This document shows, one piece after another, positions 31,906-37,684 of a DNA stretch of 64,000 bases. How positions within the stretch are numbered: position 1 is the stretch's first letter; each line of letters opens with the position of its first letter. The position numbers were made by a program, and so were the translations under genes. Source of the stretch: Phycisphaeraceae bacterium (GTDB lineage Bacteria > Planctomycetota > Phycisphaerae > Phycisphaerales > SM1A02); NCBI GenBank assembly GCA_015709595.1, contig CP054178.1:496001-560000 (forward strand), written 5' to 3'. Below the pieces are notes generated by a model. The model had not been told where the DNA came from. It was given only the letters and a program-made list of their open reading frames with translations, and did no database searches.

Positions 31906-32007
31906 CCATCGCGATATTCGTCCCGTCGCAGCGCCCGGCGACGCGCGAAATGACCTCGATCCGGTACGATGGTTTGTCATGGGCGGCGGCCCCGTGGGAT
32001 GACCCGC

Positions 32008-32808
32008 ATGTCTGACGATGAAACCGCAATCACCGTTGTGTCGCTCGTCATCGGGCTGATCCTGTGGTTCAGGTGGTACCTGCGCGTGGCGCGGGTTTCA
32101 CGCCGACTCTCCTCGCCCGCGCGGCGGCTGCCCCTGATGCTCACGCCGCCCGCGGCGGCAGGCGGGTTGTTGATCGTGCTTCGGCTCTTCGCCGATGACG
32201 AGGTGCGGTACGCGCCGCAATACCTGCTGCTGTACAGCGCGATGGGGTTCGCCTGGACGGGCGTCTTCATCCACGTGATGGCCTCGATGGGGCTGTGCGC
32301 CCGCGACGATGTCGCCGAACGCAACAACGCCGCCGCCGTCCCCGCGCTCATGGGAGCCATCCTCGGCTCGATGGGCGCGTTCGCGGGCGGCAACATCGGC
32401 GAGGGACCGGGGTGGTGGGTGGTGGTTTTCTCCAGCGGGCTGGCGACGATCACGCTGCTGGCGATGTGGATCATTTTCGACCGCACCTGTCACGTCATCG
32501 AGCACGTCACCGTCGACCGCGACCCCGCCACCGGCTGGCGCGCCGGAGCAATGCTGCTGGCGACCGGGGCGATCACGGGCCGGGCGGCGGCGGGAGACTG
32601 GGAGTCACCCATCGGCACGGTCATCGACTTCGCGGTGCTGGGCTGGCCCGCCGCGCTGGTGCTGATGATCGCGATTCTGCTGGAGCGCGTGTTCGGCGTG
32701 AAGCCGCAGCATGAGCCGGGCGGCGCATTCCTCACCGGCTTCCTGCCGGGGCTGGTCCTCCTGTCGCTGGCGACCGCGTACCTGGTCCTGCTGGGGTGGT
32801 GGACATGA
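32008..32808 (+). CDS. DUF350-like multi-helix membrane protein
   Basis: A membrane protein of 266 residues with about eight hydrophobic helices. The second half resembles the DUF350/YjfL family. ERNNAAAVPALMGAILGSMG matches the NN-x-AA-x-(6)-G-x-LLG pattern at the start of a DUF350 unit, and DRDPATGWRAGAMLLATGAI matches the start of the next. ATG 32008 has GGGA upstream; ATG 31999 is possible. The stop overlaps the start of the ATP-grasp gene (ATGA). DUF350 membrane proteins are recurrent neighbours of glutathionylspermidine-synthase-like ligases, as in the E. coli yjf cluster. No transport activity is known. Confidence 0.7.
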   Translation: MSDDETAITVVSLVIGLILWFRWYLRVARVSRRLSSPARRLPLMLTPPAAAGGLLIVLRLFADDEVRYAPQYLLLYSAMGFAWTGVFIHVMASMGLCARDDVAERNNAAAVPALMGAILGSMGAFAGGNIGEGPGWWVVVFSSGLATITLLAMWIIFDRTCHVIEHVTVDRDPATGWRAGAMLLATGAITGRAAAGDWESPIGTVIDFAVLGWPAALVLMIAILLERVFGVKPQHEPGGAFLTGFLPGLVLLSLATAYLVLLGWWT

Positions 32809-34088
32809 CGGCGCCGTGGATGCCGGTGAGGTCGCTGGATGAAGCCGAGCGGCGGACGCTGCGCCGCCGCATGATCTTCGAGCATGGCAAGTTCGACCCG
32901 CGTGTGGGAGACGTGGAGGTGATCGCGCCGTTTCCCATCATCCTGCGGCCCGAGGCGTGGAGCGAGATTGCTGACGCCGCGGAAGCACTGGCAGCCGAGG
33001 CGATGGCGGCTGAACAGGAGTTGATGGACAGGCCGGAGCTGCATCGCTCGCTCGGGTTGCCCCGGTCGATCCGGGCCGCGCTGCGTCGAGGCGATGCACC
33101 GGTTTCGATCGCACGGCAGATTCGCTTCGACTTCCACTGGACGACCGAGGGATGGCGCATCTCCGAGGCCAATACCGACGTACCGGGCGGCTACCTTGAG
33201 GCGGAGGGACTCTCCCGGCTGATGGTGGAGCATCATTCCGACTTCCACCCATGCGGCGACCCCATGGCGGCGCTGGTGCGATCCGTCGCGGCGGGGACCG
33301 ACCCGGACTCGGTCATCGCGCTCGTTCACGCCACCGCCTACACGGACGATCGTCAGACCATGGCGGCGATGCAGCGCCGTTTCGAGGTGATCGGGCGGCG
33401 GGCGGTGCTCATCGCGCCGGACCACGTCACATGGCGAAGCGGCAGGGCGCGCCTCGACCACGCGTGGGCCGACGGCGACATGGGCGCGATGATCCGATTC
33501 TTCCCGGCGGAGTGGCTGGCCAATCTCCCGCGGCGCACTGGCTGGCGTCACTTCTTCGCCGGTTCGACAACGCCTCAAAGCAACCCCGCCTGCGCGCTGC
33601 TGACGCAGAGCAAACGCTGGTCATTGCTCACCGATCGGCTCAGGGCGCCGCTGGAGCACTGGCGGACCTTCCTGCCCGAGACGCGCGACCCGCGTGAGGT
33701 GGCGTGGAAACGAGATGAGGGCTGGGTCATCAAGCCCGCGCTGGGTCGCGTGGGTGATGGTGTGGGCATCCGGGGCGTGACGCCGGAAAAGGATTGGCGA
33801 CGCATCGCCCGCGCCTGTTCGTGGTTCCCCGGCCACTGGGTCGCGCAGCGACGCTTCCAGTCGGCGCCGATGGAGACGGACGACGGGCCGGTATATCCGT
33901 GCATCGGCGTGTTCGCCATCGACGGCCGCGCCTGCGGGGCATACGGGCGCGTGAGCCGCATGCCGCTCATCGACCAGCACGCGATGGAGGCGGCGGTGCT
34001 GGTGGCCGCGCCGCGGCCCGTGGGCGACAGCCGCGGATCGGGCGCGAGGGGAAAGGAGGCCGCACATGCAGCCGCTCGACCTGTTTGA
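32805..34088 (+). CDS. Glutathionylspermidine-synthase-like ATP-grasp ligase
   Basis: An ATP-grasp amidoligase-like protein of 427 residues. IRFDFHWTTEGWRISEANTD (about 106-125) matches the substrate/metal region of the glutathionylspermidine synthase C-terminal domain. WVIKPALGRVGDGVGI (about 307-322) is the ATP-binding Lys region. The amidase domain of the full E. coli enzyme is absent. ATG 32805 overlaps the upstream stop; GTG starts at 32796 and 32799 are alternatives. It probably forms an amide bond between an amine and a carboxylate. Substrate unknown; the DUF350 partner suggests work at the membrane. Confidence 0.82.
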   Translation: MTAPWMPVRSLDEAERRTLRRRMIFEHGKFDPRVGDVEVIAPFPIILRPEAWSEIADAAEALAAEAMAAEQELMDRPELHRSLGLPRSIRAALRRGDAPVSIARQIRFDFHWTTEGWRISEANTDVPGGYLEAEGLSRLMVEHHSDFHPCGDPMAALVRSVAAGTDPDSVIALVHATAYTDDRQTMAAMQRRFEVIGRRAVLIAPDHVTWRSGRARLDHAWADGDMGAMIRFFPAEWLANLPRRTGWRHFFAGSTTPQSNPACALLTQSKRWSLLTDRLRAPLEHWRTFLPETRDPREVAWKRDEGWVIKPALGRVGDGVGIRGVTPEKDWRRIARACSWFPGHWVAQRRFQSAPMETDDGPVYPCIGVFAIDGRACGAYGRVSRMPLIDQHAMEAAVLVAAPRPVGDSRGSGARGKEAAHAAARPV

Positions 34089-34830
34089 CGTGTGGGCGCC
34101 CTCCGGCGGACGCTGGACCGGATGGGCCAAGCCGGTGCTCTTCGCCAGCGTGCGCCCGGACGCCCTGCGAGACGTGCCGGCGACGTTCATCGAGGCCGTC
34201 CGTTCGATGGACGTGTCGTGGGCGCCGCCCTCCAAGGAGGACGCCGCCCTGGTCATCGACCTGCCGGGGGCGCAGTCCCTCACCACGGGGCTTGCCCTGG
34301 CGTTCCGGGGCTACTGGCCCGTGCCGCTCTACAACACCACGATGCACCGGGCGGCGATCGTGGAAGTGGATTCGATCATCGGCCTGCTGGAGCAGGGTGC
34401 GGCGGTGCTTCGGAAAGCCGACCCGCCTCAGACCGGCCCGCCGGCCTTTCTGCTCGACAGCCGCCGGATGACCGGCAGCCCCGCGCCGCTCAAATACGAC
34501 AACCGATGGATGACCTTTCCGCAGGACTTTCCCTCCGCGACGTACCTGCAGCGATACAAGATTCTCGACGCGGTGGTGGTGCAGGAGAAGACCGGGCAGC
34601 CCGCCTCGGACCTGCAGCACATCCTGCGGCGATGGCAGGAGGCGGGCATCCGCATCTCGACCGTGCGCCCGGAAGCGGGACAGAAGCCAACGTCGATCGA
34701 TGTCGCCAGGCCTTCGGGCTTCCGATCGCTGTGGCACCGGATGATGGCCACGTTCGGGCTGCGGCGCAACAGCGCGGGGGGCTTCGGCGCCGTGGTGCCG
34801 CAGCCGTCGCAATCCGGCGGGTATGGTTGA
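34066..34830 (+). CDS. Unrecognised soluble protein, third gene of the DUF350/ATP-grasp operon
   Basis: A 254-residue protein with no signal peptide or membrane helix. I do not recognise a family. It begins MQPLDLFDVWAPSGGRWTGW and shows alternating alpha/beta character (AALVIDLPGAQSLTTGLALA, DAVVVQEKT). The last 30 residues are Gly, Ser and Gln-rich. ATG 34066 has a perfect AAAGGAGG 7 bases upstream and lies 23 bases inside the ATP-grasp gene, so it is part of the same operon. It may be an accessory or substrate-handling protein. Confidence 0.75.
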   Translation: MQPLDLFDVWAPSGGRWTGWAKPVLFASVRPDALRDVPATFIEAVRSMDVSWAPPSKEDAALVIDLPGAQSLTTGLALAFRGYWPVPLYNTTMHRAAIVEVDSIIGLLEQGAAVLRKADPPQTGPPAFLLDSRRMTGSPAPLKYDNRWMTFPQDFPSATYLQRYKILDAVVVQEKTGQPASDLQHILRRWQEAGIRISTVRPEAGQKPTSIDVARPSGFRSLWHRMMATFGLRRNSAGGFGAVVPQPSQSGGYG

Positions 34831-36303: not shown

Positions 36304-37500
36304 TCAATCCGGACCATCCGAGGCGTCAAACGCCTCCGGGGACGGGAATCGAGGCGCATCTGCCGCCGCCGGCTTGAGGTCGTCGAGCCAGTGCGCCTGA
36401 TCGTTCCGCTCGTAGATCATGAAGCGCCCGCGATTGGCGGCGTCCTTGGCGCGGTGGTAGCGCAGGTAGATGTGCCGCTCATCCACGGCGAGAATCTCCA
36501 CCTTGCCGGTCTCATGCGACATGGTGTAGCGGGCCCGACGCGCCAGCCCGGAGCCATGGCGCAGGGCTTCGCGGAAGATCTCCCACCCGCGCGTCAGCGG
36601 CACGCTGTAGGGCTCGTTGCCCGCCGTCGGGCGGCACTGGAACAGGTAGTAGGGCGGCACGCCGATCCACGAAAGCGTGCGATAGAGATCGCTGAGCGTC
36701 TTCGGGTCATCGTTGATGCCGCGGATGAGCGGACACTGGTTGACGCAGATCACGCCGCACCTGATGAAGCAGTCCAGCCCGTTGATGGCGTCGTCGGTCA
36801 GTTCGCGCGGATGGTCGAAGTGGGCCATCAGGTAGATGCGGGCCCTGGGGGTCGAGTAGGTGCGGAAGGCGTTCTGCAGCTCCTCATCGCGCGTCAACCG
36901 CCACGGGTCGAAGGCGGGCATCTTGGAGCCGATGCGGATGATCTTGACGTGCGGGATGGCGCGGAGCTGCTTGAGGATCTCCACGATGCGCCGCGTGCTC
37001 ATCAGCAGCGGGTCGCCGCCCGTCAGCAGCACGTTGGTGACGTTGGGGTTGGAAGCGATGTACCTGATTCCCTCGGAGACGTCGTTGGTGACCTCGTCGT
37101 TCTCATCCATGAACAGGCGCTTGCGGAAGCAGTAGCGGCAGTACGCCCCGCACACCTCGTTGCAGAGCAGCAGCACGGTGTGGGGGTACTTATGCTGCAC
37201 GCCCTTGGCCACGGTGACGGCGGCCTCGTTGCTGGCGTCGAGACGGCCCCACTCCTTCAGTTCCTCCTCGCGCGGGATGATGAGCTGCCTGATCGGGTCG
37301 TTGGGGTCGTTCCAGTCGATGAGAGAGAGGTAGTAGTCGTTGGCGCGGAAGACGTATTTTTCGGTGACGGGGCGCAGCGCTTCGCGCTGGTTCTCCGGGA
37401 TGTTGGCCACCTGATCGACCGTGCGGATGTACCTGACCTTGCGTCTGGGGTCGTACGCGCCGGGCGGTGTGTCGGCCACGGGGAGGGAAATGCGCGACAT
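36304..37500 (-). CDS. KamA-family radical SAM aminomutase
   Basis: A lysine-2,3-aminomutase-family radical SAM enzyme of 398 residues. The cluster-binding motif CGAYCRYCF has Cys117, 121 and 124. LLTGGDPLLM and IRIGSKMPAF follow, and the PLP-binding region lies toward the C-terminus (QCRPTAGNEPYSVPL). Relatives make beta-lysine as an osmolyte, or EpmB-type beta-lysine for elongation factor P. No epmA or efp gene is seen here, so the role is open. ATG 37500 has GGAG 8 bases upstream. Confidence 0.9.
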   Translation of the reverse strand: MSRISLPVADTPPGAYDPRRKVRYIRTVDQVANIPENQREALRPVTEKYVFRANDYYLSLIDWNDPNDPIRQLIIPREEELKEWGRLDASNEAAVTVAKGVQHKYPHTVLLLCNEVCGAYCRYCFRKRLFMDENDEVTNDVSEGIRYIASNPNVTNVLLTGGDPLLMSTRRIVEILKQLRAIPHVKIIRIGSKMPAFDPWRLTRDEELQNAFRTYSTPRARIYLMAHFDHPRELTDDAINGLDCFIRCGVICVNQCPLIRGINDDPKTLSDLYRTLSWIGVPPYYLFQCRPTAGNEPYSVPLTRGWEIFREALRHGSGLARRARYTMSHETGKVEILAVDERHIYLRYHRAKDAANRGRFMIYERNDQAHWLDDLKPAAADAPRFPSPEAFDASDGPD

Positions 37501-37684
37501 GGCTGTGCTCCGTGCAGGGTCATCTGTCCGGCGTGCGAACGGAGACGCTGAGTTGTCGTGGGATGGCGGCCCGACCATCCGGTATGCCTGCGCGCCCGCA
37601 CGGGCACGCACCCTTGTTCATCGTTTCTACCCGCGCAAGCGGCGCGGGTCAACGAAGAAGCGGAAGATTGTCAGTCATCGACGA

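Follow-up and report, generated by a model that had tools for sequence, protein, structure and literature searches.

A widespread three-gene operon from a Phycisphaeraceae bacterium, encoding a DUF350 protein, a GSP_synth-family ligase and a protein whose conserved C-terminal tail is a candidate ligase substrate

Main features

The window analysed is a stretch of 64,000 nucleotides from a Phycisphaeraceae bacterium (assembly GCA_015709595.1, contig CP054178.1, positions 496,001 to 560,000), the source genome of which is a single 3.84 Mb contig. The window contains a compact operon encoding a DUF350 membrane protein, an ATP-grasp ligase of the GSP_synth family and a third protein, here termed P3. 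This operon is a real and widespread three-gene variant of the kind known from YgiC and YjfC of Escherichia coli, and no description of it was found (see below). P3 ends in a conserved glycine-rich tail, and similar tails occur on dissimilar proteins encoded beside related ligases. P3 may well be the dedicated protein substrate of the ligase, which would recognise the tail and amidate its C-terminus with a polyamine-like amine, the DUF350 protein being the membrane partner. Comparative evidence points to the link between tail and ligase, whereas the chemistry is inferred. The features of the operon are as follows.

32008..32808, + strand: gene 1, DUF350 membrane protein of 266 aa with seven hydrophobic peaks (Pfam PF03994, hydropathy, family alignment)
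32805..34088, + strand: gene 2, GSP_synth ATP-grasp protein of 427 aa, predicted peptide-amine ligase with acidic pair D181-D182 (Pfam PF03738, fold nearest to YjfC and YgiC, residue mapping)
34053..34059, + strand: AAGGAGG, ribosome-binding site of gene 3, six bases 5' of the ATG (sequence)
34066..34830, + strand: gene 3 (P3), alpha/beta protein of 254 aa with a flexible tail, proposed ligase substrate (no family match, 122 relatives, AlphaFold2 model with a predicted local distance difference test score, pLDDT, of 88)
34759..34827, + strand: conserved C-terminal tail of P3, LRRNSAGGFGAVVPQPSQSGGYG, residues 232-254, with the GGFG core at 34777-34788 (conservation over 80 loci; low model confidence at the end)

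Each gene overlaps the next, genes 1 and 2 through an ATGA stop/start at 32805-32808 and genes 2 and 3 by 23 bases (34066-34088). These overlaps and the ribosome-binding site near 34066 had been described in an earlier reading made from the letters alone (the sequence-only reading), and all are present in the sequence. The same reading had assigned the first two genes to DUF350 and GSP_synth, and both assignments pass the curated Pfam cut-offs: gene 1 matches PF03994 in two stretches (E 8.8e-7, 29.5 bits against 26) and gene 2 matches PF03738 (E 2.8e-17, 63.4 bits against 29.3). An alternative, longer start of gene 1 lies at 31969. The start at 32008 is favoured by the family alignment, in which M1 is invariant across 15 sequences, although this support is partly by construction because the homologues had been trimmed to the nearest start. 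The description of the system as membrane-associated holds for gene 1, its sole basis, but does not extend to genes 2 and 3, in which no segment passes the hydrophobicity threshold applied; gene 3 also has no evident signal peptide by eye.

Distribution and co-conservation

Each of the three genes, when searched separately in 61 related genomes, was found in the identical 6, in the order DUF350, ligase, gene 3. Gene 3 was found in 6 of 298 genomes sampled from the class and in 17 of 343 sampled from the phylum, some of these matches being weak and distant. Named genome contigs yielded 122 relatives in several bacterial phyla and in archaea, and 80 of these loci, mostly from metagenome-assembled genomes, were kept as the P3 locus set. 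The hosts include planctomycetes, Verrucomicrobia, Clostridia and other Bacillota, Treponema, Breznakiella, Anaerolineae, Nostoc, Omnitrophica, Endomicrobium, Bathycorpusculum and a Nitrososphaerota archaeon. The ligase is present in 78 of the 80 loci and all three genes in 72; six of the other eight are cut by contig ends, and the remaining two are L102 and L120. The pairwise distance matrices of the three genes correlate at r = 0.89-0.93 (68 loci; maximum of 500 permutations 0.16), as expected if the genes were inherited together. Co-conservation in other genomes, on which the sequence-only reading had made its proposal depend, thus reaches well beyond the planctomycetes.

No fourth operon gene recurs across the 80 loci. 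Candidate groups found in at least four loci (the largest in 7) were set aside, since by eye they look like open reading frames (ORFs) that overlap the core genes, sensor proteins and pseudopilins. Neither PspA, DUF2170 nor DUF2491 genes recur in these loci.

Further observations concern individual loci. The operon occurs in L103, L108, L110, L124, L151 and L154, from archaea, spirochaetes, Endomicrobium and Verrucomicrobia, with two termite-related names among the hosts, and cross-phylum transfer in insect guts is possible. A single reading frame with both ligase and P3 matches (L153, 4774-6747) could reflect gene fusion or misassembly, and the ligase of L099 and the P3 of L129 are each split in two. 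In distant planctomycete relatives (L060, L061, L062, L070, L071, L074 and L075) diverged P3 proteins adjoin diverged ligases; their ends are rich in Ser, Gly and His, without a strict GG[FY]G, and no DUF350 match was found in the stretches examined at these loci.

The C-terminal tail of P3

In the 80 P3 proteins the tail has the consensus L-x-R-N-[SA]-[AT]-G-G-F-G-x-x-[VI]-P, followed by a variable stretch. GG[FY]G is present in all 80, and the column counts are L 77, R 68, N 67, F 77 (Y 3) and P 75. The spacing from motif start to protein end ranges from 13 to 29 residues, and 69 of the proteins end in Gly, 8 in Ala. Of 445 other ORFs in these loci, 35 end in Gly and 1 carries the motif; with shorter ORFs allowed, GG[FYW]G lies near the end of two non-core ORFs, at L079 and L082. 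Asp or Glu occurs among the last eight residues in only 14 of the 80 tails, and a graspetide-like side-chain linkage was therefore set aside as the leading idea. An acidic residue is present eight places past the motif start in 54 of the 80 (Glu 42, Asp 12), and this position may provide side-chain acceptors.

The glycine-rich core and the many Gly ends could also be explained if the tail were cleaved, for instance at its glycines, and the ligase modified the released peptide or the new Gly end, in the manner of ribosomal peptides. Trimming could likewise account for six tailed partners of other ligases, described below, which end in Lys in one cyanobacterial group. No protease recurs in the P3 loci, however, and the stretch after the core is variable in both length and sequence, so that cleavage is an unlikely explanation.

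The body of gene 3

The third gene had been called unrecognised, and it stays outside the known families searched in Pfam, NCBIfam, PADLOC and solved structures. It has no Pfam family up to E 10, its best NCBIfam match (E 0.1) is far below the cut-off of that model, and neither a PADLOC family nor a solved structural relative was found. The 16 members of the P3 family (gene 3 and 15 homologues) give no Pfam match at E 0.01. The AlphaFold2 model shows an alpha/beta body and a C-terminal end of low confidence. Foldseek comparison with the PDB and with viral models gave nothing at E 0.001, and the best VIA-align hit (Z 3.8) covers a common alpha/beta arrangement; novelty of the fold is not asserted on this basis. 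The attempt to name gene 3 by sequence or fold was abandoned, as neither the libraries nor Foldseek nor VIA-align gave a confident match. Gene 3 is not a DUF1190 protein, there being no PF06693 match in it or in the 15 homologues. When P3 and DUF1190 profiles were compared, the alignment was confined to 17 tail residues with GGFG, at 4% probability. The two families thus appear to have bodies without detectable similarity and tails that are similar.

Tails beside other ligases

In E. coli the DUF1190 proteins YgiB and YjfM adjoin the ligases YgiC and YjfC, respectively. YgiB ends in TRGGFGESVAKQS...SRSMGG and YjfM in SRGGYGRSSSARGHWGG, and in a DUF1190 alignment of ten sequences the motif accounts for three of the ten invariant columns. 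An annotated sample of 19 loci was composed of 3 from E. coli and 16 from plasmids; 19 plasmid loci in all were examined among the matches listed (60) of 158 records with a match. A gene with a Gly/Ser-rich end lies near the ligase in 16 of these 19. No tail was found in L180, the ligase of which has lost catalytic residues, in L189, a fragment, or in L190, which is gss. The acid substrate of gss is free glutathione. A relaxed tail definition was satisfied by 17 of 58 genes near the ligase, as against 0 of 120 other genes of these loci, a comparison that is descriptive because the definition was fixed after the first loci had been seen; the 17 include, at L174, a glycine-zipper protein whose gene adjoins the tailed one. 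Eleven of the 58 and 1 of the 120 carry the strict motif. By the relaxed definition only 37 of 75 P3 proteins would pass, P3 being caught by the strict motif. Three unannotated plasmid loci, outside the 19, each have a ligase-adjacent ORF ending in a glycine-rich tail, and the spirochaete loci L167-L170 have a tailed neighbour in four of four.

A prospective test was made with a rule written beforehand and applied to new loci from the phyla of genomes G644 (Clostridium) and G643 (Nostoc). Sixty match rows gave 43 new loci for testing, 2 that were already in the set and 15 without a locus. Any same-strand ORF in the 1.5 kb flanks was counted if its overlap with the ligase was at most about 60 bases. 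A tailed neighbour was found beside 28 of 34 intact ligases and 0 of 9 that were not intact (Fisher 8.9e-6), a value that overstates independence because seven of the nine come from a single look-alike subfamily that is gapped at the acidic pair; the other two are fragments, and the 34 intact ligases are also related among themselves. The six misses were explained after the fact. In L198, L200, L203 and L205 a tail is present on inspection (e.g. ...SHSGFGSSGSSHSFFGG and ...SSGFGSFFRSSGG) but masked by an over-extended ligase frame, in L211 the contig ends inside a P3-like start, and L201 begins at the edge of the examined stretch. That the tails are ordinary low-complexity ends found near ligases by chance is hardly credible in view of this test, of the absence of relaxed tails from the 120 other genes and of the strict motif in 80 of 80 P3 proteins, even though Gly/Ser-rich lipoprotein ends are common and the relaxed definition was set late.

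After removal of the tails, 59 partners fell into 19 BLAST groups, 10 of them singletons, although kinship among such short, fast-changing proteins may escape this grouping. Terminal Gly was dropped as a universal rule, being found in 69 of 80 P3 proteins but in 35 of the 59 mixed partners. Six tailed partners (L224-L229, from the phylum of G643) end in Lys, mostly as ...GRGGK or ...GRGGVGK. Three loci from the phylum of G644 (L201, L202 and L207) have frames of more than 800 aa that match GSP_synth twice, either themselves or in relatives, and are apparently tandem ligase fusions; a short tailed protein adjoins the ligase frame in L202 and L207.

The ligase

GSP_synth is the sole Pfam match in the 427 aa of gene 2, with no match to an N-terminal amidase domain. 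Its AlphaFold2 model (pLDDT 90.7) is ranked by Foldseek closest to YjfC (7uk6, E 9.6e-18) and then YgiC (7uk8), followed by glutathione and glutathionylspermidine synthetases; YjfC and YgiC are also the closest solved relatives by sequence profile. The peptide or polyamine-type conjugation system with a new third member proposed in the sequence-only reading fits this placement and is supported by it. No relative of the gene 2 ligase was found among plasmid records. In gene 2, residues R107, D109, E121, N123, K270, K310 and G317 correspond to R316, D318, E330, N332, K498, K533 and G540 of E. coli GspS, which we take to be the catalytic set. D181-D182 align with E391-E392 of GspS, presumably an acidic pair at the amine site, where YgiC and YjfC have E-D. 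S335 and T446 of GspS, assumed here to be glutathione residues, are replaced by V126 and W237. With the catalytic residues kept and the glutathione residues changed, the enzyme is likely to retain ATP and amine chemistry, and it probably uses an acid substrate other than glutathione.

Ligases with the acidic pair nearly always adjoin a tailed protein, the exception being gss (E-E). Those without it have no tailed neighbour in the examined loci, except for the second ligase copy of L179, which has A-E at this position. The planctomycete loci L072, L073, L076 and L077 have neither tailed neighbour nor acidic pair. The simplest reading of this association is that the tail would serve as acid substrate, modified at its C-terminal carboxylate. 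Recognition of the tail by the DUF350 membrane protein, unrelated to the ligase, would suit the presence of DUF350 with P3 and ligase in 72 of 80 loci, but it is highly improbable: tailed partners adjoin ligases without an annotated DUF350 neighbour (E. coli ygiBC, L172, L174 and L175), and tails are missing beside the ligases without the acidic pair.

Subfamilies without the acidic pair were seen in L212-L218 (phylum of G644) and in the planctomycete loci L072, L073 and L077; they keep the ATP-site residues, no tailed protein adjoins them, and either their amine or the type of substrate that they act on is probably a different one. The GSP_synth protein of L180 (4016-5167, a plasmid of Azospirillum sp. 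TSH58) has lost most of the aligned catalytic residues, has no tailed neighbour, and may be a pseudoenzyme with another role.

Proposed mechanism

The preferred reading, with P3 as protein substrate, draws on a tail that is conserved, that appears on dissimilar bodies and that accompanies ligases with the acidic pair, and on the retention of the catalytic residues, all as judged by comparison. The ATP-grasp protein would recognise the flexible tail of gene 3 through RN[SA][AT]GGFG and the short stretch leading to a usually Gly end. It would convert the C-terminal carboxylate to an acyl phosphate and couple this to a primary amine, most probably a polyamine, positioned by D181-D182. At the membrane, the amidated and now more cationic tail would work together with the DUF350 protein. 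The conjectural elements of this scheme are a tail that is a substrate beyond docking, modification at the C-terminal carboxylate, which amine is used and what DUF350 does; the last is a guess because it is based on the constant presence of DUF350.

Spermidine was considered as the amine. The SpeE family is present in 8 of 12 genomes (marginally in G000, 24.0 bits against 22.9), and the NspC cut-off is passed in 0 of 12, with weaker NspC matches in 6. Spermidine was rejected as the general amine, unless it is taken up or otherwise made, because neither the SpeE nor the NspC model finds a match in 4 of the 12 genomes.

Those four genomes weigh against the preferred reading, as do the following observations. 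GspS D610, presumably a spermidine contact, is not kept and corresponds to M394 in gene 2; enzymes of the YgiC type also lack it. Outside P3 the final residue varies (Gly 35, Ser 17, Lys 6 and Ala 1 of 59 partners). A lipobox-like pattern is found in 31 of the 59 tailed partners, which suggests that they are lipoproteins and poses the problem of how an ATP-dependent enzyme would reach their tails. Finally, conservation drops beyond the GGFG core, as it would in a docking motif.

Because the core is more constant than the last residue, a second reading stays in play, less probable than the first but a serious one. It holds that the tail merely docks the partner, that the product of the ligase is a small diffusible peptide-polyamine conjugate, and that P3 or DUF1190 anchors or regulates the ligase. 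YgiC and YjfC of E. coli reportedly act on peptides, to go by the title of the 2023 work of Pederick et al. (doi 10.1021/acs.biochem.2c00592), which would agree with docking. No gene for small-peptide synthesis or export recurs in the 80 P3 loci, however, and the final Gly is kept in most P3 proteins despite the variable spacing between motif and end; both points count against docking alone. It would be a long shot to regard P3, YgiB, YjfM and the other tailed partners as one functional class of bacteria and archaea, with C-termini joined to amines by ATP-grasp ligases, the amine being protein-borne in some lineages, as for a Pup-like or ubiquitin-like tag.

Comparison with known systems

In RefSeq YgiC and YjfC are named peptide--spermidine ligases, with Pederick 2023 as the source. 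The sequence-only reading had compared the operon with the E. coli yjf cluster and called its product undefined; the clustering of DUF350 with a ligase stands, but in view of these names the yjf and ygi product is less undefined than stated. YgiC and YjfC resemble gene 2 in Pfam family, nearest fold and profile, catalytic residues with acidic pair, and an adjacent tailed protein. They differ in structural-alignment identity (about 15%), in partner (DUF1190 instead of P3) and in the order DUF350, ligase, partner seen here. E. coli gss (GspSA) shares the ligase fold and the catalytic residues, whereas gene 2 has neither an amidase match nor the glutathione residues, and gss has no tailed neighbour.

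In the LysW-LysX amino-group carrier system and with the Pup ligase, an amine is joined to the C-terminal end of a dedicated protein. These belong to other protein families, and the P3 operon, unlike them, has no biosynthetic or release gene. Eukaryotic ubiquitin-like proteins form spermidine conjugates, in which a protein C-terminus accepts spermidine. The accessible part of a report on such conjugates (PMC12270671) resembles the present proposal in the C-terminal acceptor but concerns other enzymes and organisms.

Operons of ATP-grasp, DUF350, DUF1190 and DUF2491 genes are described in the available portion of a PspA survey (PMC11237479). Like yjfIJKLMC, they bring together DUF350, an ATP-grasp ligase and a tailed protein, as in the window; unlike both, the P3 loci have no recurring fourth gene, and gene 3 lies outside DUF1190. 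That portion of the survey does not contain the string GGFG. In Pseudomonas aeruginosa the PspA/DUF2170 operon (bac) affects biofilm formation, according to the accessible part of PMC10948618. No description of the tail or of gene 3 was found at title and abstract level; Pederick 2023, Iyer 2009 and Sui 2012 lay outside this scope and may propose the tail as substrate. Likewise, no statement of the natural peptide substrate of YgiC or YjfC was found in the openly accessible literature that was searched.

Elsewhere in the window, an ORF at 36304-37611 (- strand), downstream of an aminotransferase-like gene, resembles a lysine 2,3-aminomutase when judged by eye.

Significance

The tails of YgiB, YjfM and gene 3 are candidate natural substrates for the ligase family of YgiC and YjfC. 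In this respect gene 3 offers a substrate candidate without a predicted membrane segment, whereas several other partners resemble lipoproteins. If the proposal is true, the operon would represent a widespread C-terminal protein modification and would give a role to an undescribed family of bacterial and archaeal proteins.

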